Origin: Micromonospora solifontis
GTDB taxonomy: Bacteria > Actinomycetota > Actinomycetes > Mycobacteriales > Micromonosporaceae
DNA: 64,000 bases
Assembly (NCBI RefSeq): GCF_003725545.1
Contig: NZ_RJLN01000028.1
Location: 1-64,000 of the forward strand
Direction of reading: 5' to 3'
The translations under genes and the position numbers were made by a program. Positions 1 to 14,009 of the stretch are shown piece by piece; the first letter of the stretch is position 1; each line of letters opens with the position of its first letter. The notes under the pieces are model-generated. The model was not told where the DNA came from. It made no database searches and saw only the letters and a program-made list of their open reading frames with translations.

Positions 1-1750
1 GGCCGACTCGCGCCGCCGGCTGCGGCTCGGCACGCTGCTGGCCCTGACGCTCTTCGCCGCCATCGGCGTCCGGCTGGTCTTCCTGCAGACCGTCACCACC
101 CCGGCGTACGCCGACGGCGGGCTGCCCAGCCGGCTCGCCACGGTCGAGCTGCCGGCCCCGCGCGGGGCCATCTACGACCGCACCGGCGCCCCGCTGGCGC
201 ACAGCGTGGAGGCCCGGTACGTCTACGCCGACCCGACCCTGGTCAAGGACCGGTTCGCCGCCGCCAAGCTGCTCTCGCCGCTGCTCGGGGTCCCGGTCTC
301 CGAGTTGGCCGACCGGATGAAGCCGCACACCCTGCCCGGCACCAGCACCCCCTTGCAGTTCGCCTACCTGGCGCGGGGTGTCGAGATCGACAAGGCCAAG
401 CAGATCATGGCGCTGGACCTGGCCGGCATCGGCGTGCACCGGGACGAGCGGCGCGAGGTGCCCGGCGGTGACCTGGCCGCCAACCTGATCGGCTTCGTCA
501 GCCAGGACATGGTCGGACTGGAGGGCCTGGAGGCCAAGTACGACGACCTGCTGGAGGGCCAGCCCGGCAAGAAGACGTACGAGGTCGGGCAGGGCGACCT
601 GGCCGCGCCGATCCCGGGCGGCTACAGCCTGACCACCCCGGCCAAGCCCGGCGGGTCGCTGGAGCTGACCATCGACCGTGACCTGCAGTTCATGACCCAG
701 CGGATCCTGTCCAACCAGATGGCCCAGACCAGGGGCAGCGTCGGCGCCGCGGTGATCATCGATGTGCCGACCGGCGAGGTGCTGGCCCAGGCGAGCTACC
801 CCGGCTACAACGCCGCCGACCCGGGCAAGGTCAACTCGCCGAGCGACCGGGAGGACGCCGCCACCAGCTTCATCGTAGACCCCGGCTCGATCCACAAGGC
901 GATCACCTACGGCGCCGCCCTCCAGGAGGGCGTGATCACCCCGGACACGACGTTCCCAGTCCCCAACACGATCGTCAAGGGCGGCGTGCCGTTCCGGGAC
1001 ACCCACCCGGCCAACGGGCGGAAGATGAGCATCCCCGGGATGCTCGCCTTCTCCTCCAACGTGGGGACCATCGAGATCGCCGACAAGCTGGGCCGGGACC
1101 GGCTGATCGATTACCAGAAACGGTTCGGGCTCGGCCAGGCCACCGGCGAGGGGATGCCCGGGGAGGCCCCCGGCCGGCTGCTCCCCGCCGACCAGTGGAG
1201 CGGCTCCTCGTACGGGTCGGTGCCGATCGGGCACAGCGTGGACGCCACCCCGCTGCAGATGGCCGCCGCGTACAACGCGATCGCCAACAACGGCACCTAC
1301 GTCCAGCCGCACCTGATCAAGAGCGTGATCGACGCGAACGGGAAGAAGAAGGCGTCCCCGCCGCCGGTCACCCGCTCGGTGCTCAGCCCGCAGAACGCGG
1401 CGGCGCTGCGCACCATGCTGGAGGCGGTCACCACCGTCGACGGCCCCGACGGGCGGGCCACCGGCCTGGCCGCCGCCGTGCCCGGCTACCGGGTGGCCGG
1501 CAAGACCGGCACCGGCCTGCGGTACGACAACGGCGAGCAGCAGCCCGGCGAGGTCGGCTCGTTCATCGGGATGGCCCCGGCGGAGCACCCCCGGTACGTG
1601 GTGGCGGTCTTCGTGTGGAGCCCCGGCGGCGAGGGCGGCGCGGTGGCCGCGCCGGCCTTCCGGGAGATGATGGGCTTCACCCTCCGGCACTACCGGGTGC
1701 CGCCGTCGGCGACCGACCGGTCCCCGAAGTTCGAGGTCTTTCCGCACTGA
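1..1750 (+). CDS. ftsI: Division-specific peptidoglycan transpeptidase (class B PBP, FtsI), 5' partial
   Basis: This is the septal transpeptidase that cross-links new peptidoglycan at the division site, partnered with FtsW. The reading frame is open from base 2, so the start lies upstream of the window. The visible N-terminus shows one membrane anchor (about bases 23-85) and the PRGAIYDR dimerisation motif. The three penicillin-binding motifs are present: SIHK with the acyl-accepting Ser at 887-889, SSN at 1052-1060, and KTGT with its Lys at 1502. It heads the dcw cluster, and murE follows 91 bp after the stop. The Ser motif context is DPGSIHK rather than the common EPGSTFK, but the SxxK pattern is intact. 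Family identity is very likely; the exact N-terminus is unknown. Confidence 0.95.
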   Translation, partial: ADSRRRLRLGTLLALTLFAAIGVRLVFLQTVTTPAYADGGLPSRLATVELPAPRGAIYDRTGAPLAHSVEARYVYADPTLVKDRFAAAKLLSPLLGVPVSELADRMKPHTLPGTSTPLQFAYLARGVEIDKAKQIMALDLAGIGVHRDERREVPGGDLAANLIGFVSQDMVGLEGLEAKYDDLLEGQPGKKTYEVGQGDLAAPIPGGYSLTTPAKPGGSLELTIDRDLQFMTQRILSNQMAQTRGSVGAAVIIDVPTGEVLAQASYPGYNAADPGKVNSPSDREDAATSFIVDPGSIHKAITYGAALQEGVITPDTTFPVPNTIVKGGVPFRDTHPANGRKMSIPGMLAFSSNVGTIEIADKLGRDRLIDYQKRFGLGQATGEGMPGEAPGRLLPADQWSGSSYGSVPIGHSVDATPLQMAAAYNAIANNGTYVQPHLIKSVIDANGKKKASPPPVTRSVLSPQNAAALRTMLEAVTTVDGPDGRATGLAAAVPGYRVAGKTGTGLRYDNGEQQPGEVGSFIGMAPAEHPRYVVAVFVWSPGGEGGAVAAPAFREMMGFTLRHYRVPPSATDRSPKFEVFPH

Positions 1751-1827
1751 ACGGGGACGGCGGGACATCATCGGTGAGTGGCGACGAACCACCGGGGCGG
1801 CTGTGCGGTCGGAACCGGACGACCGGG

Positions 1828-1833
1828 TAGGGT
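1828..1833 (+). promoter_or_regulatory. Probable -10 box of murE
   Basis: TAGGGT lies 8 nt before the GTG at 1842 and fits the TAnnnT consensus, so the transcript would begin at or next to the start codon (leaderless). No clear -35 is visible. It supports internal initiation of murE despite the preceding ftsI. Confidence 0.5.
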
Positions 1834-1841
1834 CTGACGCC

Positions 1842-3365
1842 GTGCCCGGCAATCCACGTCCCCGAACCGTGAATCCCGTCCGGCTCGGCGACCTCGCCAG
1901 TCGCGTGGCCGTCCCGGCGCCCGACGGTGCCGCCGAGGTGGCCGTCACCGGGGTGACCCACGCCAGCCAGGAGGTCCGCCCCGGCGACCTGTACGCGGCG
2001 CTGCCCGGCGCCCGCCGGCACGGCGCCGAGTTCGCCGCCGGCGCGGCCGAGGCCGGCGCGGTGGCCGTGCTCACCGACCCGGCCGGGGTGGAGCTGGCCG
2101 CCGCGGCGGGCCTGCCCCTGCTGGTGGTGGACGACCCCCGGGCGGTGCTCGGCGAGATCGCCGCCACGGTCTACGGCGACCCCACCGCCGGCCTGCTGGT
2201 GATCGGCGTGACCGGCACCGCCGGCAAGACCTCCACCAGCTACCTGATCGAGTCGGGGCTGCGCGCCGCCGGGCACACCACCGGGCTGATCGGCACGGTG
2301 GAAACCCGCCTCGGCGACCTGGTGATCGACAGCGTGCGGACCACCCCGGAGGCGACCGACCTGCACGCCATGCTCGCCGTGGCCCGGGAGCGCGGGGTCG
2401 ACGCGGTGGTCATGGAGGTGTCCAGCCACGCCCTGGCCATGGGGCGGGTCGGCGGGGTGCGGTTCACCGTGGGCGGCTACACCAACTTCGGCTCCGACCA
2501 CCTGGACTTCCACGCCGACGAGGCGGACTACTTCGCGGCCAAGGCGAAGCTCTTCGACGGTCGCTGCCAGGTCGAGGTGCTCAACCACGACGACCCGGCG
2601 CTGCGGCCGCTGCGCAAGCCGGCCACCGTGACCTACTCGGCGGCCGGCGACCGGGCCGCCACCTGGTGGGCCGACGGGGTCGACGGCGAGGGCTACGCGC
2701 AGCGGTTCACCGTCCACGGCCCGGACGGGGTCAGCCTGGCCACCGGGGTGGCGCTGCCCGGCCGGCACAACGTGGCCAACGCGCTGCTGGCCATCGCGAT
2801 CCTGGTGGCCGCCGGGGTCGACCCGGCCACGGCCGCCGCCGGGGTGGCCGCCTGCGGCGGGGTGCCCGGCCGGCTGGAGCTGGTCAGCGGGGACGCGCCG
2901 GTCCGGGGCGTGGTGGACTACGCGCACAAGGCGAACGCCATCGAGGCGGTCCTGCTGGCGCTGCGCGGCCTGACCGCCGGCCGGCTGATCTGCGTGGTGG
3001 GCGCCGGCGGCGACCGCGACCGGGGCAAGCGGCCGGTCATGGGCGCCACCGCGGCGCAGGGCGCCGACGTGGTCGTGGTGACCGACGACAACCCGCGCAC
3101 CGAGGACCCGGCCGCGATCCGGGCCGAGGTGCTGGCCGGCGCGTACGCGGGGAACACCGCCGCGCGGATCATCGAGGTGCCCGGCCGGCGGGCCGCGATC
3201 GAGGAGGCGGTGCGGGTGGCCGAACCGGGGGACGTGGTGGCGCTGCTGGGCAAGGGGCAGGAACGCGGCCAGGAGATCAACGGCGAGGTGCTGCCCTTCG
3301 ACGACCGGGTGGAGCTGGCGGCGGCGCTGCGCGCCCGCTTCGGTGACCTGGTGGGGCAGCGATGA
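1842..3365 (+). CDS. murE: UDP-MurNAc-tripeptide synthetase MurE
   Basis: A cytoplasmic ATP-dependent ligase that adds the third amino acid to UDP-MurNAc-dipeptide. The ATP P-loop TGTAGKTS is near residues 125-131. The motif DNPR at residues 416-419 of 507 is the family's signature for meso-diaminopimelate rather than lysine. That fits the DAP-type wall of Micromonosporaceae. I chose the GTG at 1842, placed 8 nt after a -10-like TAGGGT. An in-frame GTG at 1803 would add 13 unconvincing residues, and a GTG at 1869 is also possible. Its stop overlaps the murF start by 4 bp (ATGA), indicating translational coupling. Confidence 0.95.
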   Translation: MPGNPRPRTVNPVRLGDLASRVAVPAPDGAAEVAVTGVTHASQEVRPGDLYAALPGARRHGAEFAAGAAEAGAVAVLTDPAGVELAAAAGLPLLVVDDPRAVLGEIAATVYGDPTAGLLVIGVTGTAGKTSTSYLIESGLRAAGHTTGLIGTVETRLGDLVIDSVRTTPEATDLHAMLAVARERGVDAVVMEVSSHALAMGRVGGVRFTVGGYTNFGSDHLDFHADEADYFAAKAKLFDGRCQVEVLNHDDPALRPLRKPATVTYSAAGDRAATWWADGVDGEGYAQRFTVHGPDGVSLATGVALPGRHNVANALLAIAILVAAGVDPATAAAGVAACGGVPGRLELVSGDAPVRGVVDYAHKANAIEAVLLALRGLTAGRLICVVGAGGDRDRGKRPVMGATAAQGADVVVVTDDNPRTEDPAAIRAEVLAGAYAGNTAARIIEVPGRRAAIEEAVRVAEPGDVVALLGKGQERGQEINGEVLPFDDRVELAAALRARFGDLVGQR

Positions 3366-4759
3366 TCGCGCTGAGCCTGGCCGAGGTCGCGGCGGCCGTC
3401 GGCGGGCGGCTGGTGGCCGCCGACCCGGACGCCCGGGTCACCGGCACCGTGGAGTTCGACTCCCGCAAGGTCACCCCGAGCGGCCTATTCGTCGCCTTCC
3501 CCGGCGAGAAGGTGGACGGGCACGACTACGCCGCCGGCGCGGTGTCCGCGGGCGCGGTGGCCGTGCTCGGCACCCGCGAGGTGCCCGGCGTGCCGATGGT
3601 GCTGGTCGCCGACGCGCTCGACGCGATGGGCCGGCTGGCGCGCGCGGTGGTCGACCGGCTGCCCGGGCTGACCGTGATCGGGCTGACCGGTTCCTCCGGC
3701 AAGACCACCACCAAGGACCTGATCGCCCAGCTCGCCGTCCGGCTCGGCCCGACGGTGGCGCCGCCCGGCTCGTTCAACAACGAGCTGGGCCACCCGTACA
3801 CCGCGCTGCAGGCCGGCCCGGAGACCCGCTACCTGGTGATGGAGAAGGGCGCCCGGGGGGTGGGCCACATCCGCTACCTGTGCGACGTGGTGCCGCCGCG
3901 GATCTCCGTGGTGCTCAACGTCGGGGTGGCGCACATCGGCGAGTTCGGCTCGGTGGAGACCATCGCCCTGGCGAAGGGGGAGCTGGTCGAGGCGCTGCCC
4001 GCGGACGGGCTGGCCGTGCTCAACGCCGACGACCCGCTGGTCGACGCGATGGCGGCGCGGACGCGGGCCCGGGTGGTCCGCTACGGCGAGTCGGAGCGGG
4101 CCGACGTGCGGGCGGTCGAGGTGACGGTCGACGGGCGGGGGCGCCCGTCGTACACCCTGGTCACGCCGGAGGGGAGCGCGCCGGTGCGGCTCGGGCTGAC
4201 CGGGCGGCACCAGGTCTCCAACTCGCTCGCCGCCGCGGCGGTCGCCCGCGAGCTCGGGATGCCGCTGGCCGACCTGGCCGCCGCGCTGGGCGAGCTGGGC
4301 CTGGTCTCCACCCGCCGGATGGACGTGTTCGAACGCGCCGACGGGGTCACGGTGATCGACGACTCGTACAACGCCAACCCGGCGTCGACGGCGGTCGCGC
4401 TGCGGGCGCTGGCGAGCATGCGCGGCACGGGGCGTACCGTCGCGGTGCTCGGCTACATGGCCGAGTTGGGCGACTTCGAGACGGAGGGACACCAGCAGGT
4501 CGGCCGGCTCGCGGCCGAGCTGGGTGTCGACCGGCTGCTCGTGGTGGGTGAGCCGGCGGCGCCGATCCACCAGGGCGCGACAGCGGTAGGTAGTTGGGGA
4601 GGAGAGTCGGTGCTGCTCACCGATCAGGCGGCGGCCGTCGAGGTGCTGCGCAGGGAGCTACGTCCGGGGGACGTGGTGCTGGTGAAGGGCTCCCGGTACC
4701 GCACCTGGGAGGTGGCCGACGCGCTGCGCGCGGAGGCTGACAAGGACGGCGCTGCATGA
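3362..4759 (+). CDS. murF: UDP-MurNAc-pentapeptide synthetase MurF
   Basis: Adds D-Ala-D-Ala to the UDP-MurNAc-tripeptide, completing the cytoplasmic precursor. It is 465 aa, normal for MurF. The Mur-ligase P-loop [10 protein letters not shown] is around residues 109-117 and the central-domain pattern SFNNELGHP follows near residue 138. The C-terminal ligase domain contains DDSYNANP. Its start ATG overlaps the murE stop and its stop overlaps the mraY start, each as ATGA, so murE-murF-mraY are translationally coupled. No anomalies seen. Confidence 0.96.
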
Positions 4760-5880
4760 GGGCGGTCATCGTCGCCATCGGGGTGGCCTTCCTGATCTCG
4801 CTGTTCTGCACCCCGATCGCGATCAAGGTGTTCACCCGGCTCAAGGCCGGCCAGCCGATCCGGGCCGAGGGCCCGGCCATGCACCAGGGCAAGAAGGGCA
4901 CGCCGACGATGGGCGGCGTGGTCTTCATCCTGGCCACGGTGATCGCGTACGTCGCCGGCCACCTGGCGCTGACCACCCTGCCGGACGCGCAGATCGCCCA
5001 GGTCGAGCCGACCATCACCGCGCTGGTGCTGCTGGGGCTGATGGTGTTCTCCGGCGCGGTCGGCTTCATCGACGACTTCCTGAAGGTCCGCAAGCGGCAC
5101 AGCGGTGGTCTGAACAAGCGGGGCAAGCTCGCCGGCCAGATCCTGGTCGGTGCGATCTTCGGCGTCGTGGCGCTCTACTTCCCGAGCAGCATGACCGACG
5201 TCCGCGGCAACGCGACCAACACCGAGACGGTGGGCAGCACCACGCTGAGCTTCATCCGGGACATCCCGGCGCTGGAGATCGGCAAGATCGGCGCGATCAT
5301 CGTGATCATCATGGTGGTGATGGCGGCGACCAACGGGGTGAACCTCACCGACGGCCTGGACGGCCTGGCCACCGGCGCCTCGGTGATGGTGCTGGCCGCG
5401 TACGGCCTGATCGCCTTCTGGCAGTACCGGCACTGGTGCGCCGACCCGAACTACACCGAGGCGTACTGCTACACCGTCCGGGACCCGCTGGAGATCGCGC
5501 TGATCGCCGGGGCCGCGGCCGGCGCCTGCGTCGGCTTCCTCTGGTGGAACACCTCGCCGGCCCGGATCTTCATGGGCGACACCGGCGCGCTGGGCCTGGG
5601 CGGCCTGATCGCCGGCATGGCGATGTCCACCCGGACCATCCTGCTGCTGCCGATCCTGGGCGGGCTGTTCGTGATCATCACGATGTCCGTGGTGATCCAG
5701 ATCATCTCGTTCCGGACCACCGGCAAGCGGGTGTTCCGGATGTCGCCGCTGCAGCACCACTTCGAGCTGGCCGGCTGGAGCGAGGTCAACATCGTGGTCC
5801 GGTTCTGGATCATCGCCGGCATCGGCGTGGCCATCGGGCTCGGCCTGTTCTACAGCGAGTTCCTCGCCGCCGTCACCTGA
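4756..5880 (+). CDS. mraY: Phospho-MurNAc-pentapeptide transferase MraY
   Basis: An integral membrane enzyme that transfers phospho-MurNAc-pentapeptide to undecaprenyl phosphate, giving lipid I. It is 374 aa with about ten hydrophobic segments. Conserved catalytic and Mg-binding motifs are visible: the DD pair at residues 106-107 in [17 protein letters not shown] at 196-205, and the late LQHHFE motif near residue 334. It overlaps murF by 4 bp. In most actinobacteria murD follows directly. Here the next features are a 50-bp perfect palindrome and then ftsW. Confidence 0.96.
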
Positions 5881-5885
5881 GATGC

Positions 5886-5935
5886 AAGGAGGGGCCCCTT
5901 TTTAACAGACGTCTGTTAAAAAGGGGCCCCTCCTT
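5886..5935. repeat. 50-bp perfect palindrome between mraY and ftsW
   Basis: Two 25-nt arms match perfectly with no spacer; the centre is CAGAC|GTCTG at 5910/5911. Each arm carries the self-complementary GGGGCCCC plus a T5 or A5 run. As RNA it would fold into a very long hairpin ending in CTCCTTT, so it may stop transcription after mraY. It lacks the classical trailing U-tract. It occupies the position where murD is normally found. Confidence 0.9.
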
Positions 5936-6002
5936 TCGCTTCCGACACGCCGAGCGGGCGGTTGCGCCACGGACGGGCGGGCTCAGCCAGCATGATGGGC
6001 AC

Positions 6003-7535
6003 GTGGGGGAGGGACGCGACACCGAGGGCACGACCGACACGCCGGCCCGGCGGCCGCCCGCCGCGACGCGGCCGGCCGACCCGCCGGGCCCGCTGCTCGG
6101 GCTGGACGCCGCCGGCGGGCTGGCCGCGCTGCGCGGCCTGCTGGCCCGCCCGCTGGCCTCCTACTACCTGCTGCTCTCCAGCGCCGGCCTGCTGCTGCTC
6201 ATCGGCCTGACCATGGTCTTCTCGGCCACCAGCGTCCGGGACTTCGCGCAGGACGGCGACGCCGCGGCGTCGCTGACCAAACAGACCGTCTTCGCGGTGA
6301 TCGGCATCGGGGCGTTCTGGGCCTGCCAGCGGCTGCCCGCCCGCACCTTCCGCGCCGTCAGCCGGCCGTTCCTGGGCGTGGCCGTGGTGCTGCTGCTGGT
6401 CCTCAACCTGCTGGTCGCGCTGGAGGCGCTGTTCCGGGTGAAGGCGATCGGCCCGCTCAAGGCCCAACTGCTCTGGCTCTACCTCGGCCCGATCTCGGTG
6501 CAGCCGGTGGAGGTGGCCAAGTTCGCGCTGGTGTTGTGGGGCGCGCACGTGCTGGCCCGCAAGGGCGCCGCGCTGGGCTGGTGGAAGGAGCTGGCCACCC
6601 CGCTGTTCCCGGTGGTCGGCCTGCTCTTCGTGCTGGTCGGCTACAACGACCTGGGCAGCATGCTCTGCCTGCTGGCGCTGGTGGTCGGGATGCTCTGGGC
6701 GGCCGGGGTCCGGCTGCAGGTGTTCGCCGCGCTCTCCGCGGTCGGCCTGGCCGGCGTCGGCCTGCTGGTCGCCGCCGCCTCGCTGGGCGCCGGCTCCGGC
6801 TCCCGGGACGCCGACAACTATCGGCTGACCCGGCTCACCTCGTTCCTCGACCCGCCCGACCCGAAGACCTGCTTCCAGGAAAAGCTGGAGGGCTGCTACC
6901 AGCTCGTGCAGGCGCGGTACGCGGTGCAGCACGGCGGCTGGTTCGGGGTCGGGCTCGGCAAGAGCACCCTGAAGTGGAACTGGCTGCCCGAGGCGCACAA
7001 CGACTTCATCTTCGCGATCATCGCCGAGGAGTTGGGCGTGGTCGGCTGCACCGTGATCCTGGTGCTCTTCGCCGTGCTGGCGTACAGCGGGCTACGGATC
7101 GCCCGGCGGGTCGAGGACCCGTTCCGCCGGCTCGCCGCCGCCGGGGTCACCGCCTGGCTGGTCGGCCAGGCCGTGATCAACATCGGCGGGGTGACCGGGC
7201 TGCTGCCGCTGACCGGCGTACCGCTGCCGTTCATCTCCGACGGCGGCAGCGCCCTGGTGGTGACCCTGGCCGCGGTCGGGATGCTCGCTTCCTTCGCCCG
7301 CGCCGAGCCGGACGCGGCCCGAGCCCTGCATGCCCGTCCGCCGGCCCGATGGGTCCGACTAGTCTGGGCCCCGTTGCCGCCGCTTCCCGGCCGGCGTCGC
7401 CGACCGGCGTCGCCCGGGGCGGACCGCGGGTCCGTACCCCGGTCCCGGTCGCGGCGGGAGGACGACCAGGCCGCGACCCGCGGCGCCCGGCCCGGCCGGA
7501 CGCGCGTCGGCACGGCGAGCGAGAGGAGGCGCTGA
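6003..7535 (+). CDS. ftsW: SEDS-family peptidoglycan polymerase FtsW
   Basis: A polytopic division protein of the SEDS family that polymerises lipid II at the septum with FtsI as its partner. From GTG 6003 it is 510 aa, with a disordered 45-residue Pro/Arg N-terminus and about ten transmembrane helices. Conserved SEDS signatures are HNDFIFAIIAEELG (Asn at 333) and PFISDGGSALV (from about 409). A basic 75-residue tail follows the last helix. The GTG is chosen because CATGAT lies 6 nt upstream and the frame further upstream is a shadow of mraY. The stop overlaps the murG start (TGATG). Confidence 0.93.
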   Translation: MGEGRDTEGTTDTPARRPPAATRPADPPGPLLGLDAAGGLAALRGLLARPLASYYLLLSSAGLLLLIGLTMVFSATSVRDFAQDGDAAASLTKQTVFAVIGIGAFWACQRLPARTFRAVSRPFLGVAVVLLLVLNLLVALEALFRVKAIGPLKAQLLWLYLGPISVQPVEVAKFALVLWGAHVLARKGAALGWWKELATPLFPVVGLLFVLVGYNDLGSMLCLLALVVGMLWAAGVRLQVFAALSAVGLAGVGLLVAAASLGAGSGSRDADNYRLTRLTSFLDPPDPKTCFQEKLEGCYQLVQARYAVQHGGWFGVGLGKSTLKWNWLPEAHNDFIFAIIAEELGVVGCTVILVLFAVLAYSGLRIARRVEDPFRRLAAAGVTAWLVGQAVINIGGVTGLLPLTGVPLPFISDGGSALVVTLAAVGMLASFARAEPDAARALHARPPARWVRLVWAPLPPLPGRRRRPASPGADRGSVPRSRSRREDDQAATRGARPGRTRVGTASERRR

Positions 7536-8641
7536 TGGGTCCGCTGCGTTCGGTGGTGCTCTGCGGAGGGGGTACGGGTGGGCACATCTACCCGTTGCTG
7601 GCCTTCGCCGACTGCCTGCGCCGACACGACCCCAGCGTCCGGATCACCTGCCTGGGCACACCCAAGGGCCTGGAGAACGAGCTGATCCCGCCGGCCGGCT
7701 ACGACCTGCGGCAGATCCCCGCCTACCAGCTGCCCCGCTCGGTCAACATGAGTCTGGTCCGCACCCCGGACCGGATGTGGAAGGCGGCCCGCGCGGCTGG
7801 CAAGGTGATCGACGAGGTGCAGGCCGACGTGGTGGTCGGCTTCGGCGGGTACGTCTCCGTCCCCGGCTACCTGGCCGCCTGGCGGCGGGAACTGCCGATC
7901 GTCATCCACGAGGTGAACGTGCCGCCGGGCGTGGCCAACCGGCTCGGGATGAAGTTCACCAAGCATGTCGCGGTGGGCTTCCCGCACCAGCCGGCGCAGG
8001 CCGAGGCGCTGCGCGACGCCCGGGTGGTCGGCGTGCCGCTGCGCCGGGGCATCGCCGGCCTGGACCGGGCCGCCATGCGCGACGCCGCCCGGGCCCACTT
8101 CGGACTCCGCCCCGACCTGCCGGTGCTCTTCGTCGCCGGCGGCTCGCAGGGCGCCCGCTCGATCAACCTGGCGGTCTCCGGGGCGGCCAAGGAGCTGGCC
8201 CGCAACGGCGTACAGGTGCTGCACGTGATCGGCGCCCGGAACGAGCCCATCTCCGTCCCCACCGACCTGCCGGTGCCGTACGTGACCCTGCCCTACCTGT
8301 CCGAGATGGAGCTGGGGTACGCCGCGGCCGACCTGATGCTGGGCCGGGGCGGCGCGATGACCTGCGCCGAGGTGGCCGCGATCGGGCTGCCCACCATCTA
8401 CGTGCCGTACCCGCACAGCAACCAGGAGCAGAAGCGCAACGCGCTGCCCGTGGTGGAGGCCGGCGGCGGGTTGCTCGTCGACGACGCCGAGATGACCCCG
8501 GACTGGCTGGAGCGCACGGTGATCCCGCTGATCCGGGACCCGCAGCGGCTCGCCGCGATGGGCGCCGCCGCGGCCGCGTACGGCCGGCGGGACGGTGACG
8601 TCGCCCTGCTGAACTTCGTCTACGAGGCGGTGAGCCACTGA
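7535..8641 (+). CDS. murG: UDP-GlcNAc:lipid I transferase MurG
   Basis: A peripheral membrane GT-B glycosyltransferase that adds GlcNAc to lipid I, giving lipid II. It is 368 aa. The N-terminal GGGTGGH loop is at residues 11-17 and the UDP-binding region GGAMTCAEVAAIGLP lies near residue 275. A strong ribosome site GAGAGGAGG precedes the ATG, which overlaps the ftsW stop by one base. The acceptor-side motif reads HEVNVPPGVAN, where the family usually has HEQN or HEAN. His, Glu and Asn are kept, so activity is expected. Confidence 0.95.
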   Translation: MGPLRSVVLCGGGTGGHIYPLLAFADCLRRHDPSVRITCLGTPKGLENELIPPAGYDLRQIPAYQLPRSVNMSLVRTPDRMWKAARAAGKVIDEVQADVVVGFGGYVSVPGYLAAWRRELPIVIHEVNVPPGVANRLGMKFTKHVAVGFPHQPAQAEALRDARVVGVPLRRGIAGLDRAAMRDAARAHFGLRPDLPVLFVAGGSQGARSINLAVSGAAKELARNGVQVLHVIGARNEPISVPTDLPVPYVTLPYLSEMELGYAAADLMLGRGGAMTCAEVAAIGLPTIYVPYPHSNQEQKRNALPVVEAGGGLLVDDAEMTPDWLERTVIPLIRDPQRLAAMGAAAAAYGRRDGDVALLNFVYEAVSH

Positions 8642-8672
8642 TGTCGGCGGCCGCGAACGGAAGGTACCGCTC

Positions 8673-10163
8673 ATGAACACCGCGCAGTTCACCCCCGCCG
8701 GCACGACGACCGCGGAGGACCTGGGCCGGATCCACCTGATCGGGGTGGGCGGCGTCGGCATGAGCGGCCTGGCCCGGCTCTTCCTCACCCGGGGCCTGCC
8801 GGTCTCCGGCAGCGAGCTGCGGGAGTGGCCGTCGCTCGCCGGCCTGCGGGCGCTGGGCGGCACCATCCACATGACCCACGAGGCGTCCAACCTCGACGGG
8901 GTGGACACGGTGGTCTATTCCTCGGCCATCCCGCAGGACCACCTCGAGATGGTCGAGGCGCGCCGGCGCGGCCTGCGCCTGCTGCACCGCTCCGAGGCCC
9001 TGGCCGCGGCGATGACCGGCCGGCGGACGGTGGCGGTCGCCGGCACGCACGGCAAGACCACCACCACCTCGATGGTCACCATGGTGCTCCAGCAGGCCGG
9101 CACCGACCCGTCCTTCGTGATCGGCGGGGAGATCTCCGAGGTCGGCTCGGGCGCACACCACGGCACGGGTGAGTACTTCGTGGTCGAGGCGGACGAGAGC
9201 GACCGCTCGTTCCTCATCTACCGCCCGTTCGTGTCGGTCATCACCAACATCGAGGCGGACCACCTCAACACCTACGGGGACCTGGCCAGCCTGGAGGCCG
9301 CCTTCGCCGACTTCGCCCGGCTCACCGACCCCGAGGGCTTCATCATCACCTGCGCCGACGACCCGGGCGGCCGGCGGCTGGCCGAGACGCTGCGCGCCGA
9401 GGGGCGCCGGGTCTGGACGTACGGCGAGTCGGCCGACGCCGACCTGCGGCTGAGCGACATGGCGTCCTCCGCGCAGGGGGTGCGCTACCTGGCCACGATC
9501 GAGGGCCGGTCGCTGGGCGAGATCCGGATGCCCGTGCCGGGGCGGCACATGGCGCTCAACAGCGCGGTCGCGGTGCTCACCGCGTACCTGCTGGGGCTGC
9601 CGGTGACGGCGGCCGAGGCGGCGCTCGGCGCGTTCCCCGGGGTGCGGCGGCGCTTCGAGCGCAAGGGCGTGGCCGACGGCGTGCTGGTCTACGACGAGTA
9701 CGCGTACCACCCGACCTCGATGACCCTGGCCCTGCAGACGCTGCGCGAGGTGGCCGGCGAGGGCCGGCTGATCGTGGTCTTCCAGCCCTACCGGCTCTAC
9801 CGCACCCGGGACCTGCAGGCGGAGATCGCCGCCGCCCTGGCCATCGCCGACGAGCTGGTGCTGCTGGAGGTCTTCGGGCCGGGCGAGCTGCGCCAGCCTG
9901 GCGAGGGCGCGGCGGCGCTGATCGCGGCGGTGCCGCTGCCCGCCGAGCGGAAGGTCTTCGTCGAGGCGTGGGACGACGTGCCGGCCGAGGTGGCCCGCCG
10001 GGCCCGGCCCGGCGACGTGGTGGTGACCATGGGCGCGCCGCCGATCTCGCTGATGGGCGACCAGCTGCTCGACGCCCTGCTGGCCCGAACCGGCGAGCCG
10101 GGCGGCGCGGCGGCGATCGGCACCGGTGTCGGCCCGGACGGCGCGGCGGCCGCGGCCGGATGA
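8673..10163 (+). CDS. murC: UDP-MurNAc amino acid ligase MurC
   Basis: The first Mur ligase, joining an amino acid to UDP-MurNAc. It is 496 aa with the N-terminal Rossmann motif GVGGVGMSG and the P-loop AGTHGKTTTT around residues 122-131. GGAAGG lies 8 nt before the ATG. It sits between murG and ftsQ, as in mycobacteria but unlike Streptomyces, where murC lies elsewhere. Micromonosporaceae walls are known to carry glycine at peptide position 1, so this MurC may accept glycine; that is inference. The stop overlaps the ftsQ start (ATGA). Confidence 0.95.
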   Translation: MNTAQFTPAGTTTAEDLGRIHLIGVGGVGMSGLARLFLTRGLPVSGSELREWPSLAGLRALGGTIHMTHEASNLDGVDTVVYSSAIPQDHLEMVEARRRGLRLLHRSEALAAAMTGRRTVAVAGTHGKTTTTSMVTMVLQQAGTDPSFVIGGEISEVGSGAHHGTGEYFVVEADESDRSFLIYRPFVSVITNIEADHLNTYGDLASLEAAFADFARLTDPEGFIITCADDPGGRRLAETLRAEGRRVWTYGESADADLRLSDMASSAQGVRYLATIEGRSLGEIRMPVPGRHMALNSAVAVLTAYLLGLPVTAAEAALGAFPGVRRRFERKGVADGVLVYDEYAYHPTSMTLALQTLREVAGEGRLIVVFQPYRLYRTRDLQAEIAAALAIADELVLLEVFGPGELRQPGEGAAALIAAVPLPAERKVFVEAWDDVPAEVARRARPGDVVVTMGAPPISLMGDQLLDALLARTGEPGGAAAIGTGVGPDGAAAAAG

Positions 10164-10978
10164 GTCCCGGCCCGGCCCGTGGCCGGACCCGCGGCCAGGA
10201 CGGCGGGGCCGGCCGGCGCAACCCGGTACGGCAGTGGCAGCTGGTCCGGGCGGGCGCGGACGCCGTTCCGCCGTCCACCCGGCGGTTCATGGCCCGGGCC
10301 CGGCAGCGCCGGATGCGCGCGGCCCTGCCCTGGGCGGTGGCCGCCGGCGTGCTGGCGCTCGCCGGGCTGATCGCCTGGACCGTGCTCGGCACCGGCCTGT
10401 TCGGCGTCCGCGAGGTGCGGGTGGTCGGCGCGAAGCTGGTCACTCCCGTCGAGGTCCGGGAGGCCGCGGCGGTGGTGGACGATGCCCCGCTGGCCCGGGT
10501 GGACCTCGCCGCGACCGCCCGTCGGGTCGGCAGGCTCGCCCCGGTCGAGCGGGCCACCGTGGCGCGGGACTGGCCGGGAACGCTGGTGATCCGGGTGGTG
10601 GAGCGGACCCCGGTGGCCGTGGTGCCGCAGGGGGACCGGTTCGCCGTGGTCGACCGCGCCGGCGTGGTCTTCCAGGACGTGCCCCGCGCTCCCGACGGGT
10701 TGCCGGTGATCCGGGTGGGCCGGCCCGCCCCGGACGACCCGGGCACCCGGGCCGGCCTGGCGGTGCTCGCCGCGCTCAGCCCCCGGTTGCGGGCGGAGTT
10801 GGTCGCCGTGGACGTGGCCGGGCTGGCCCGGATCACCCTGCGGCTGCGCGGCGACCGGACGGTGTTCTGGGGCGACGCGACCCAGGGGCCGAAGAAGTCC
10901 GAAGTGGCCACCGCGCTGCTCGGTCGGAAGGCCGACACGATCGACGTCAGCGCCCCGGACGTGGTCACCTACCAGTGA
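10160..10978 (+). CDS. ftsQ: Divisome protein FtsQ/DivIB
   Basis: A bitopic division protein that connects early and late divisome proteins. It is 272 aa: a basic cytoplasmic N-terminus, a single membrane helix at about residues 55-77, then a POTRA domain from about residue 80 (VREVRVVGAKLVTPVEV) and a beta domain. The ATG is chosen because it overlaps the murC stop as ATGA; the longer open frame upstream lies inside murC. The 240-bp gap before ftsZ carries the ftsZ promoter region. Confidence 0.92.
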   Translation: MSPGPARGRTRGQDGGAGRRNPVRQWQLVRAGADAVPPSTRRFMARARQRRMRAALPWAVAAGVLALAGLIAWTVLGTGLFGVREVRVVGAKLVTPVEVREAAAVVDDAPLARVDLAATARRVGRLAPVERATVARDWPGTLVIRVVERTPVAVVPQGDRFAVVDRAGVVFQDVPRAPDGLPVIRVGRPAPDDPGTRAGLAVLAALSPRLRAELVAVDVAGLARITLRLRGDRTVFWGDATQGPKKSEVATALLGRKADTIDVSAPDVVTYQ

Positions 10979-11086
10979 TCCGCCGGTCAGTGGGACGTGA
11001 CCCGGCCCGCTCCGGCCGGCGACACGCCGGAAAGGTCCTTGGCTCATCGCGCGGCGGCGCATACGTTGCCCCGAAGAGATCAGTGG

Positions 11087-11115
11087 TTGACATCGCCCTA
11101 AGCCTCTAGTAGAGG
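11087..11115 (+). promoter_or_regulatory. Candidate ftsZ promoter
   Basis: A perfect -35 TTGACA (11087-11092) is followed after 17 nt by TAGAGG (11110-11115), giving a leader of about 100 nt before ftsZ. ftsZ of Streptomyces is known to have its own regulated promoters between ftsQ and ftsZ, so the position fits. Confidence 0.55.
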
Positions 11116-11218
11116 GTGAGGGTTTCGGCAGTGGGACCCGCCGGGAAATGCTCCGCCGCTGGTCTGGCCAAGCCGTGTGGGGTCGGCCCATGCCAATCTC
11201 GAAGGGAAAGGACCGGAG

Positions 11219-12334
11219 ATGACACCTCCGCACAACTACCTGGCGGTCATCAAGGTCGTCGGCATCGGGGGCGGCGGCGTCAACGCCGTCAACCGGATGA
11301 TCGAGGTTGGGCTCAAGGGCGTCGAGTTCATCGCGATCAACACCGATGCGCAGGCGCTGCTGATGAGCGACGCCGACGTCAAGCTCGACGTCGGCCGCGA
11401 GCTGACCCGGGGGCTGGGCGCGGGGGCCAACCCGGACGTCGGCAAGAACGCCGCCGAGGACCACCGCGACGAGATCGAGGAGGTGCTCAAGGGCGCCGAC
11501 ATGGTCTTCGTGACCTGCGGCGAGGGCGGCGGCACCGGCACCGGCGGGGCGCCGGTGGTGGCGAACATCGCCCGCAAGCTCGGCGCGCTCACCATCGGTG
11601 TGGTCACCCGGCCGTTCTCGTTCGAGGGCAAGCGCCGCCAGGTGCAGGCCGAGTCCGGCATCGAGGAGCTGCGCAACCAGTGCGACACGCTCATCGTGAT
11701 CCCCAACGACCGGCTGCTCGCCCTCGGCGACCGCAACATCTCCATGATGGACGCCTTCCGGACCGCCGACCAGGTGCTCCTCTCCGGTGTCCAGGGCATC
11801 ACCGACCTGATCACCACGCCGGGTCTGATCAACCTGGACTTCGCCGACGTCAAGAGCGTGATGAGCGGCGCCGGCAGCGCGCTGATGGGCATCGGCAGCG
11901 CCCGCGGCGAGAACCGTGCGGTCGAGGCGGCCGAGGCGGCCATCTCCAGCCCGCTGCTGGAGCAGAGCATGGACGGCGCGCGCGGCGTGCTGCTCTCCAT
12001 CGCCGGCGGCTCCGACCTCGGCCTGTTCGAGATCAACGACGCCGCGCAGCTGGTCACCGACGCCGCCCACCCGGACGCCAACATCATCTTCGGCGCGGTC
12101 ATCGACGACGCGCTCGGCGACGAGGTGCGGGTGACGGTGATCGCGGCCGGGTTCGACGGGGGCGCGCCCGCGTACAAGGCGGTGGAGCCGGCCCGCAAGA
12201 GCAACCAGAACCAGCCGGCCCAGGCCACCGCGCCGGTCACCCCGCCGGCCACCATGCCGCCCCCGCAGCAGTCGCCGCGTCGGGTGCTCTTCGACGACGT
12301 CGACGTGCCCGACTTCCTCAAGAACGGGTCCTGA
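11219..12334 (+). CDS. ftsZ: Cell division GTPase FtsZ
   Basis: The tubulin-like GTPase that forms the Z-ring. It is 371 aa. The GTP-binding signature [12 protein letters not shown] is around residues 101-112, the T7 loop region with NLDFADV follows near residue 206, and the variable linker is short and Pro/Gln-rich. The conserved C-terminal tail DVDVPDFLK binds partners such as SepF. The ATG at 11219 has GGGAAAGG upstream and gives the standard N-terminus [20 protein letters not shown]. An in-frame GTG at 11177 is rejected as an untypical extension. Confidence 0.98.
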
Positions 12335-12343
12335 GCCGCGCCG

Positions 12344-13090
12344 ATGACCGACACTTCCGCCACGGTGCGACCGGATCGTCGCGCCGAGCTCGCGGCCGGG
12401 CTCGCCCGGGTGCGCGCCCGGATCGCCGACGCCTGCACGGCGGCCGGCCGGGACCGGGGCGAGGTCACCCTGGTCGCGGTGACCAAGACCTACCCGGCCG
12501 GCGACGTGGTGGCCCTCGCCGGGCTCGGGGTCACCGACGTCGGGGAGAACCGTGACCAGGAGGCGGCCCCGAAGGCCGCCGAGGCGGCCGCGGCCGGGGC
12601 GACGCCGCGCTGGCACTTCATCGGTCAGCTGCAGCGCAACAAGTGCCGTTCGGTGGTCCGGTACGCCGACGTGGTCCAGTCGGTCGACAGCGTCCGGCTG
12701 GCCGGGGCCCTGGACGCCGCGGCGGCGGCCGGCCGGGACCGGCCGCTGGACGTGCTGGTGCAGGTGAGCATCGACGGCGACCCGGCGCGCGGTGGGGCGC
12801 TGCCGGGGTCGGCCGACCCGGATCGCGGGCTCGACCCGGTGGCCGAGGCGGTGGCCGGGGCCGGGGCGCTGCGGCTGGCCGGCCTGATGGCGGTGGCGCC
12901 GCTGGGCTGGGAGCCGGAACGGGCCTTCGCCCGGCTGGCCGAGGTGACCCGGCGGTTCCGGGACGGGTTCCCGGAGGCGACCGTGCTCTCCGCCGGAATG
13001 AGCGGGGATCTGGAAATCGCGATCGGGTACGGCGCGACACATGTCCGCGTCGGCAGCGCGTTGCTCGGAATGCGCCCCACGCTGCGGTAG
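12344..13090 (+). CDS. YggS/PROSC family PLP-homeostasis protein
   Basis: A PLP-binding alanine-racemase-fold protein that buffers free pyridoxal phosphate in the cytosol. It is 248 aa, with the cofactor Lys48 in VAVTKTYP and the downstream motif WHFIGQLQRNK. The C-terminal SAGMSGDLEIAIGYGATHVRVGSALLG is typical of the family. It follows ftsZ by only 9 bp. In Streptomyces a laccase-like ylmD gene intervenes; it is absent here. Confidence 0.93.
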   Translation: MTDTSATVRPDRRAELAAGLARVRARIADACTAAGRDRGEVTLVAVTKTYPAGDVVALAGLGVTDVGENRDQEAAPKAAEAAAAGATPRWHFIGQLQRNKCRSVVRYADVVQSVDSVRLAGALDAAAAAGRDRPLDVLVQVSIDGDPARGGALPGSADPDRGLDPVAEAVAGAGALRLAGLMAVAPLGWEPERAFARLAEVTRRFRDGFPEATVLSAGMSGDLEIAIGYGATHVRVGSALLGMRPTLR

Positions 13091-13285
13091 CCTGACCGCG
13101 AAAGAAGCAAATTACATCAGTGTTGTTCAGGAACGGCGTTCCCGTAGCCGGGGGCCGTGGCGAGCGGACCGCGAATCGCTCGCCAGGGGATTGCCGATCC
13201 GGTCCGGTGGGCATTCGTTGTCCACTCGTGATCAAGCGACACGGCACGGGGGCGCGTGCCGCACGGCGGACGGAAGGGCGCGGGG

Positions 13286-13981
13286 ATGGGTGCACTGCGC
13301 AAGGCGGGGGTCTGGCTCGGACTCGTCGAGGAGGATGACGAGCGGGCGTACGAGGACGGTGGCTACGACAAGGGTGGCTACCGGGACTCGCGCTACCGGT
13401 CGAGCCGGTACTCGGAGGAGTTCGCCGACGAGGACGACGAGGAGTCCGAGGAGCCGCCCGCGAGCCGTACCCGGGTCGGCGACCGGGGGCGGCTGAGCGA
13501 GCGCGCGTCGAGCCGGCTCGCCGAGACCGAGCGGGCCGAGGTGGAGCGTCCGGAGCGGGCCGAGCGGTCCAGTGTGCGCTCGATCACCCGGTCCGGGGCC
13601 GGCGAGACCTCCGGCGCGCTGACCTACCACACCCGGGACAACCTCGCCCTGGCCCCGCAGGTGCAGCCGCGGGAGCGGGCGGTGGCCGCCGAGGACGAGC
13701 AGCGCTACCAGATCACCACCCTGCACCCGACGACCTACCGCGAGGCGCGCACCATCGGCGAGCACTTCCGCGACGGGGTGCCGGTGATCATCAACCTCAC
13801 CGAGATGGACGAGGCGGACGCCCGCCGGCTGGTGGACTTCGCCGCCGGGCTCGCGTTCGGTCTGCGCGGTACGATCGAGCGCGTGACCAACCGGGTGTTC
13901 CTGCTCTCACCGGCCAACGTCCAGGTCACCGCGGAGGACAAGGCCAAGATCGCTGAGGGCGGCTTTTTCAGCCTGAGCTAG
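13286..13981 (+). CDS. sepF: Z-ring membrane anchor SepF
   Basis: Bundles FtsZ filaments and tethers them to the membrane. It is 231 aa. The first residues (MGALRKAGVWLGL) form the amphipathic membrane-targeting helix, followed by an acidic, Arg/Tyr/Asp-rich disordered linker. The folded SepF domain covers the last 90 residues (ITTLHPTTYREARTIGEHFR onward). The ATG at 13286 is chosen over one ten codons upstream because it starts the conserved amphipathic helix and has GGAAGGG upstream. The 195-bp gap before it probably holds a promoter; I could not assign one. Confidence 0.93.
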   Translation: MGALRKAGVWLGLVEEDDERAYEDGGYDKGGYRDSRYRSSRYSEEFADEDDEESEEPPASRTRVGDRGRLSERASSRLAETERAEVERPERAERSSVRSITRSGAGETSGALTYHTRDNLALAPQVQPRERAVAAEDEQRYQITTLHPTTYREARTIGEHFRDGVPVIINLTEMDEADARRLVDFAAGLAFGLRGTIERVTNRVFLLSPANVQVTAEDKAKIAEGGFFSLS

Positions 13982-14009
13982 CCCGCTCGACCGAGGGACG
14001 TCGCCTGCC

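Follow-up and report, generated by a model that had tools for sequence, protein, structure and literature searches.

A conserved element before ftsW in murD-less Micromonosporaceae lies inside murD in related genomes and may be a retained ftsW promoter

The mraY-ftsW gap and the glutamate ligase of Micromonospora solifontis

The window analysed is a 64,000-nucleotide stretch of the Micromonospora solifontis genome, corresponding to contig C149 of a 5.9-Mb assembly that is 93% complete. In this window mraY (4756..5880, plus strand; TIGR00445, 290 bits) ends with a stop codon at 5880, which opens a gap of 122 bp (5881-6002) without a murD gene. The gap is closed by ftsW (6003..7535, plus strand), which begins with a GTG codon and scores 290 bits with PF01098 and 325 bits with TIGR02614, slightly below the cut-off of 337.5. 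Profile matches and coordinates therefore bear out the gene order and spacing given in the initial annotation. It had also claimed that no MurD-like frame occurs elsewhere in the window, and a MurD profile found nothing above cut-off there, with cross-matches below cut-off confined to murC, murE and murF. No Rfam model matched the window at gathering thresholds.

Three features can be recognised within the gap. A perfect 50-nt palindrome (5886..5935, no strand assigned), with arms of 25 nt and no loop, forms a terminator-like hairpin and belongs to a family dispersed in Micromonospora. It is followed by a GACACGC box (5944..5950, plus strand), which starts 59 nt before the GTG of ftsW and includes a WhiA-type GACAC (5944-5948). 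A candidate -10 hexamer, CATGAT (5991..5996, plus strand), spans -12 to -7 relative to the start codon and overlaps a conserved ATGATG (5992-5997), with the GTG of ftsW positioned 5 nt past the latter. The initial annotation was concerned with the palindrome and overlooked that the likely murD-derived remnant in the gap is GACACGC...ATGATG (5944-5997).

The initial annotation had further proposed that the D-glutamate ligase must lie elsewhere or be replaced, possibly by the MurD2/MurL route. The sole protein of the genome above the MurD cut-off (TIGR01087, 282 bits) is encoded on another contig (C163:23930-25231, minus strand). It is adjoined in divergent orientation by a MurL homologue (C163:25368-26687; NF041275, 406 bits, E 1e-121, 440 of 447 positions), the score of which falls below a cut-off of 700 that was set for Xanthomonadales. 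A search for glutamate racemase (MurI) yielded no TIGR00067 match at E 0.001 in this 93%-complete assembly. A second MurD-like frame on contig C170 was rejected, as it corresponds to MurT. A search for a solved structure related to MurL gave no significant match (best E 0.51).

Alignment to E. coli MurD places E203 and R371 of the C163 protein (numbered on the translated stretch L007:13310-11916) at the two stereospecificity positions, the MurD2 residues Glu197 and Arg358 having been reported to switch specificity (PMC8788868). Across 50 MurL genomes, Glu and Arg are each found in 49; the Glu exception is Longispora albida, with Asp, while the Arg exception is a broken copy in G057. The canonical MurDs carry Asp and Lys at these positions in 17/17 correctly extracted sequences, three wrong-frame rows out of 20 having been set aside. 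At the position of E. coli Lys319, all 50 MurD2s have Leu or Ile and the 17 canonical sequences have Lys; a Lys to Thr change at this residue is reported to let E. coli MurD take L-Glu (PMC8788868). These residues, together with the neighbouring gene, suggest that the MurD-family ligase of this genome is MurD2-like and the partner of MurL, and the route proposed in the initial annotation appears correct. It is also already known, because PMC8788868 lists it for Micromonospora and confirms it in vitro with enzymes from Micromonospora sp. and Salinispora tropica. The Glu and Arg residues of MurD2, the adjacent MurL and the failure to find MurI here are features shared with the Xanthomonas oryzae XOO_1320/XOO_1319 pair and its counterparts in Micromonospora, Salinispora, Actinoplanes and Verrucosispora, from which the present enzymes show no difference at sequence level.

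In several genera (G010, G048, G020, G032, G058, G067, G079, G105 and others) MurD2 and MurL are encoded apart, and MurD2 there has 54-64% identity to the MurD2 of the window organism; other g34 members keep the linkage. Two copies appear damaged, either by sequencing error or by decay: the murL of G091 (L054) has a TAG stop inside the MurL match, and the murD2 of G057 (L058) has a truncation or frameshift that affects the C-terminal part.

Exchange of the two routes across the family

MurL is encoded in 79 of 150 family genomes and MurI is above cut-off in 70; no genome has both. Weak MurI-like fragments below cut-off are present in five MurL genomes, and neither protein was found in G063, a 77%-complete assembly. 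The mraY-ftsW junction was inspected in 40 of the 79 MurL genomes (41 with G005) and in 20 of the 70 MurI genomes, picked for genus spread and not at random; L125, a second MraY paralogue of G001 with no ftsW beside it, and G123 were left out. A murD gene lies between mraY and ftsW in 20/20 MurI genomes, and an intact canonical murD is found at this junction in 0/41 MurL genomes. On a tree of MraY, FtsW and MurG from 61 genomes, calculated by a quick method, the starred branches force four changes of state, located at the main clade, g44, G005 and G040. Parsimony on this tree gives the number of switches, not their direction (gain or loss).

Two of these switches have left unusual arrangements. 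The order in G005 is murF-mraY-murL-murD2, about 1.9 kb of unidentified frames, then ftsW-murG-murC (L306, G005:C164), such that murL-murD2 occupies the dcw position of murD itself. G040 (Longispora albida DSM 44784) has a 161-codon open frame between mraY and ftsW, 2 nt past mraY (L115), that resembles the middle domain of canonical MurD (44% identical to the MurI sister G062 across 194 columns). The frame is devoid of both outer domains and has an altered P-loop; its composition is of coding type (GC3 0.96), and it could represent either a shrunken murD with retained function or young decay. The murL-murD2 pair of G040 is located elsewhere in the genome, in tandem. When the 40 MurL gaps were searched in six frames with a profile built from 20 canonical MurDs (including three wrong-frame sequences), a murD remnant was detected in G040 (E 4e-32), all other matches having E > 0.2. 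Apparent tblastn matches to L134 residues 470-494 were rejected as murD remnants and judged to be ftsW sequence absorbed into the query ORF.

To the known MurD2/MurL picture this adds the four switches on the family tree, the in-place murL-murD2 of G005 and the shrunken murD of Longispora albida. The family amounts to a natural experiment: one essential step of cell-wall synthesis was exchanged at four points of the tree, with the outcomes preserved as replacement in place, a shrunken gene or clean deletion.

A dispersed palindrome at gene ends

The initial annotation had suggested that the palindrome may be a scar of murD loss. The palindrome itself is real and beyond chance: RNA from 5878-5960 is predicted to fold with -53.4 kcal/mol (z -8.8), and 0/200 shuffles fold as well. 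The stem is directly followed by a short T run (TTTCGC) and no long T tract, and the site is flagged by a simple terminator scan. The exact 50-mer recurs at three other intergenic places in the genome, each between convergent genes, as placed using the 30 of 40 half-site places that were available as loci.

The half-site TTAA-N0-6-GGGGCCCCT is found 40 times in the M. solifontis genome, compared with 0 for the reversed pattern. Copy number within the genus ranges from 0 to 237 per genome, with 0 in 6/16 genomes; outside the genus, 6/134 genomes contain 1-4 copies and 128/134 none. The 237 half-sites of the GGGGCCCC palindrome family occur in one Micromonospora and none in its close relatives, and longer asymmetric arrays also exist (G000 and other g1 genomes). 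A replichore polarity of the half-sites was considered and rejected, given mixed strands among the 101 of 156 places covered in a single genome.

Gaps of 50-400 nt that contain the palindrome core are convergent in 30/61 cases and divergent in 4/61, compared with 115/526 and 150/526 for gaps without the core. Genes were predicted here by a simple composition rule, and another 79 loci from Micromonosporaceae were added to these loci to form the background. Of 15 Micromonospora, all without murD between mraY and ftsW, five have the family palindrome at this junction (one copy being imperfect); in most of the others its position is taken by an unrelated hairpin. Folding with z < -2 is seen in 13/15 Micromonospora, in 10/25 MurL junctions outside the genus and in 3/20 mraY-murD junctions of MurI genomes. 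These data point to a transcription end after mraY, the hairpin sequence of which is exchangeable, at least in Micromonospora, and not to a scar. The hairpin would separate mraY from ftsW by ending the mraY transcript.

Dispersed intergenic palindromes and bidirectional intrinsic terminators share with this family the dispersed copies, the GC-rich hairpin and the preference for convergent gene ends. The present palindrome differs in being a perfect 50-nt repeat without a long T tract that is nearly confined to part of one genus, and the copy studied here lies between co-directional genes, unlike bidirectional terminators at convergent ends. Searches of open-access papers showed no description of this palindrome family.

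The GACACGC...ATGATG element before ftsW and within murD

All 14 aligned Micromonospora keep CGACACGCC past the hairpin and ATGATG just before the ftsW start. More widely, the composite GACACGC-N28/46-ATGATG is found at 39/40 MurL junctions, where dinucleotide shuffles lead to an expectation of 0.01; the exception is G040. G005 also has GACACGC...ATGATG, bringing the count to 40/41 MurL genomes. Even in G028 (L105), a MurL genome in which other frames take up about 3.5 kb of the mraY-ftsW interval, the element is located beside ftsW. The start codon follows exactly 5 nt past ATGATG in 34/39 MurL genomes and 6 nt past it in three (G028, G064, G106), neither register applying to the remaining two (G079, G092). 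The weight of the element lies in this fixed place and not in rarity: a bare GACACGC-N32/44-GATGATG occurs somewhere in 129/150 family genomes, also outside murD and ftsW, with fewer matches to a reversed-pattern control, and the window itself (CATGATG) escapes this stricter pattern. In the CATGAT of the window, A occupies -11 and T occupies -7, as would be expected for the -10 hexamer of a leaderless ftsW mRNA, a role that CATGAT may fulfil. Visual inspection showed no -35 hexamer, and a scan for the sigma-70 consensus across window positions 1-14000 returned no promoter anywhere.

What is new is that this conserved element, which makes up the rest of the gap, lies inside murD in the MurI relatives. 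There, GACACGC is located 32 codons upstream of GDTVLL and specifies an Arg-His pair. All 16 MurI genomes with this pair use CGA for its Arg, compared with 34/600 of the remaining Arg codons of the 20 murD genes; the other four murDs have Lys (three) or Tyr (one) at that site. At a distance of 35 nt downstream, 13/14 Asp-Asp pairs are written GAT GAT, GAT accounting for 67/616 of the other Asp codons. The encoded peptide is DDGAM, and its Met codon lies 5 nt past ATGATG, as does the ftsW start in MurL genomes. The codons that follow are alike in several genera, reading ATGGGGGAG or ATGGCGGAG in murD and GTGGGGGAG or ATGGCGGAG in ftsW. The distance from box to ATGATG is fixed at 35 nt in MurI murDs and is 35-43 nt in MurL gaps. 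The element is not indispensable, as the strict composite is present in 13/20 MurI murDs and absent from the other 7/20 as well as from G040.

The box extends to other families of the class. Among the best-scoring 30 murDs, from 117 matching genomes of 118 searched, 27 contain an in-frame CGACACGC, and wherever Arg-His was recognised its Arg codon is CGA (23/23, compared with 43/956 of the other Arg codons). The downstream hexamer is more variable (GACACT, GACAAT, GATGCT and similar), with A2 and T6 kept in 25/27 by eye; the exceptions are two f15 loci. A codon scan of the last 400 murD codons, in which the site was not named, ranked the Arg codon top in the family, class and combined sets. 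Top columns in the 20 MurI loci reach -log10 P of 7.6 for mraY, 4.2 for murG and 11.2 for ftsW, against 17.2 and 12.1 for murD; MurL genomes also display strong codon columns, in murG (28.3, Gly) and mraY (16.5, Ser). The P values take no account of relatedness among the genomes and were used for ranking only. An N-terminal Leu CTA column that came up as top codon signal was discarded as out-of-frame mraY sequence in stop-to-stop ORFs.

The GACAC motif corresponds to that of WhiA (PMC3781837). For S. venezuelae, a ChIP peak of WhiA lying 269 bp before the start of ftsW and a footprint are reported (PMC3781837), and the murD-embedded box of nine f16 (g62) loci lies 239-341 nt upstream of ftsW. 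The WhiA/WhiB-dependent ftsW promoter of S. venezuelae (PMC3781837, PMC4850268) thus has in common with the murD-bearing genomes a GACAC upstream of ftsW at comparable distance. The main texts of these two papers do not mention murD; here, unlike in the S. venezuelae reports, the box is seen in murD codons across actinobacterial families and is kept in genomes without murD. Searches of open-access papers, including mycobacterial ones, showed no statement that an ftsW promoter lies inside murD. A WhiA domain (PF02650) is encoded in the M. solifontis genome (C157, 73 bits) and in G082, G040 and G062; none was found in G005, which has the element and is assembled to 69% completeness. Motif and position together suggest that the box is a WhiA site.

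We propose that the 3' part of murD in MurD-bearing actinobacteria carries an ftsW-specific promoter inside the coding sequence. It would consist of a GACAC box of WhiA type followed, about 35 nt further on, by a hexamer resembling a -10 element, both held by rare codons. In M. solifontis, murD would have become dispensable at the dcw locus and been lost because the organism uses the MurD2/MurL route for the D-Glu position. The loss would have kept the promoter, with ftsW now beginning right behind it at a codon matching the internal Met of murD, and the ftsW transcript is probably leaderless. The gap at 5881-6002 is hence most likely a transcription boundary, in which a hairpin probably ends the mraY message and is followed by an ftsW promoter that relatives write inside murD; hairpin and promoter account concretely for the gap. 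We assign a probability of roughly three in four (0.76) to this reading as a whole, in which MurD2/MurL made murD dispensable, the embedded ftsW promoter was kept and the hairpin ends the mraY message. The presence of MurD2 and MurL, the failure to find MurI, the loss of canonical murD from the junction, the conservation of the element in both settings, the codon constraint, and the hairpin family with its preference for 3' ends are read directly from the genomes. WhiA binding, a -10 role for the hexamer, a leaderless mRNA, termination at the hairpin and descent of the element from murD are predictions from those patterns. We further consider it fairly likely that the ftsW promoter has resided in murD since early in the actinobacterial class and was kept in three of the four switches, with the old murD Met as the ftsW start. 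Longispora albida would be the fourth switch, in which the promoter part was lost and a coding fragment kept.

Other explanations were weighed against the same observations. Plain relocation of murD with an unchanged pathway, leaving a meaningless spacer, would be compatible with a MurD-family protein above the TIGR01087 cut-off on another contig; that protein, however, has MurD2 residues and adjoins MurL in a genome in which MurI was not found, and the gap holds an element common to 39/40 MurL junctions, which makes relocation highly improbable. We give equally little credence to the palindrome as an excision scar of murD, be it a transposon end, a recombination site or a deletion footprint. 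It does sit where murD was lost, but three exact copies occupy unrelated intergenic sites of the same genome, just 5 of 15 Micromonospora junctions have it although all are murD-less, and the half-site is missing from 6/16 genomes of the genus and 128/134 outside it.

More weight is due to readings that accept the element. It may not stem from murD and may instead have arisen anew in front of ftsW once murD had gone, as the differing spacing (35 compared with 35-43 nt) and the shortness of the flanking similarity could indicate; yet box, hexamer, the 5-nt spacing to the start and the following codons all match in several genera, and we regard re-evolution as unlikely. A somewhat less unlikely, though still doubtful, alternative is that GACACGC...ATGATG is a real DNA-level signal other than a WhiA promoter of ftsW, serving another regulator or acting as an RNA signal. 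GACAC is short, WhiA binding is predicted here from the motif, what else besides GACAC directs WhiA is not known according to PMC3781837, and the spacing is variable in MurL genomes. Against this, the place relative to ftsW fits the S. venezuelae WhiA ChIP and footprint data, and in 34/39 MurL genomes the last base of the hexamer lies 7 nt ahead of the start codon.

If an embedded promoter is indeed retained, a clean deletion of murD may prove difficult, since some of its sequence looks regulatory for cell division. Manipulation of murD in Streptomyces and other actinobacteria is predicted to disturb ftsW, and synonymous changes at the two codon sites would be expected to do so without touching MurD. 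Separately, the murG of MurL genomes contains two Gly columns on rare codons (GGA in 28/37 and GGT in 31/33), which possibly reflect another embedded signal and possibly the relatedness of the genomes.
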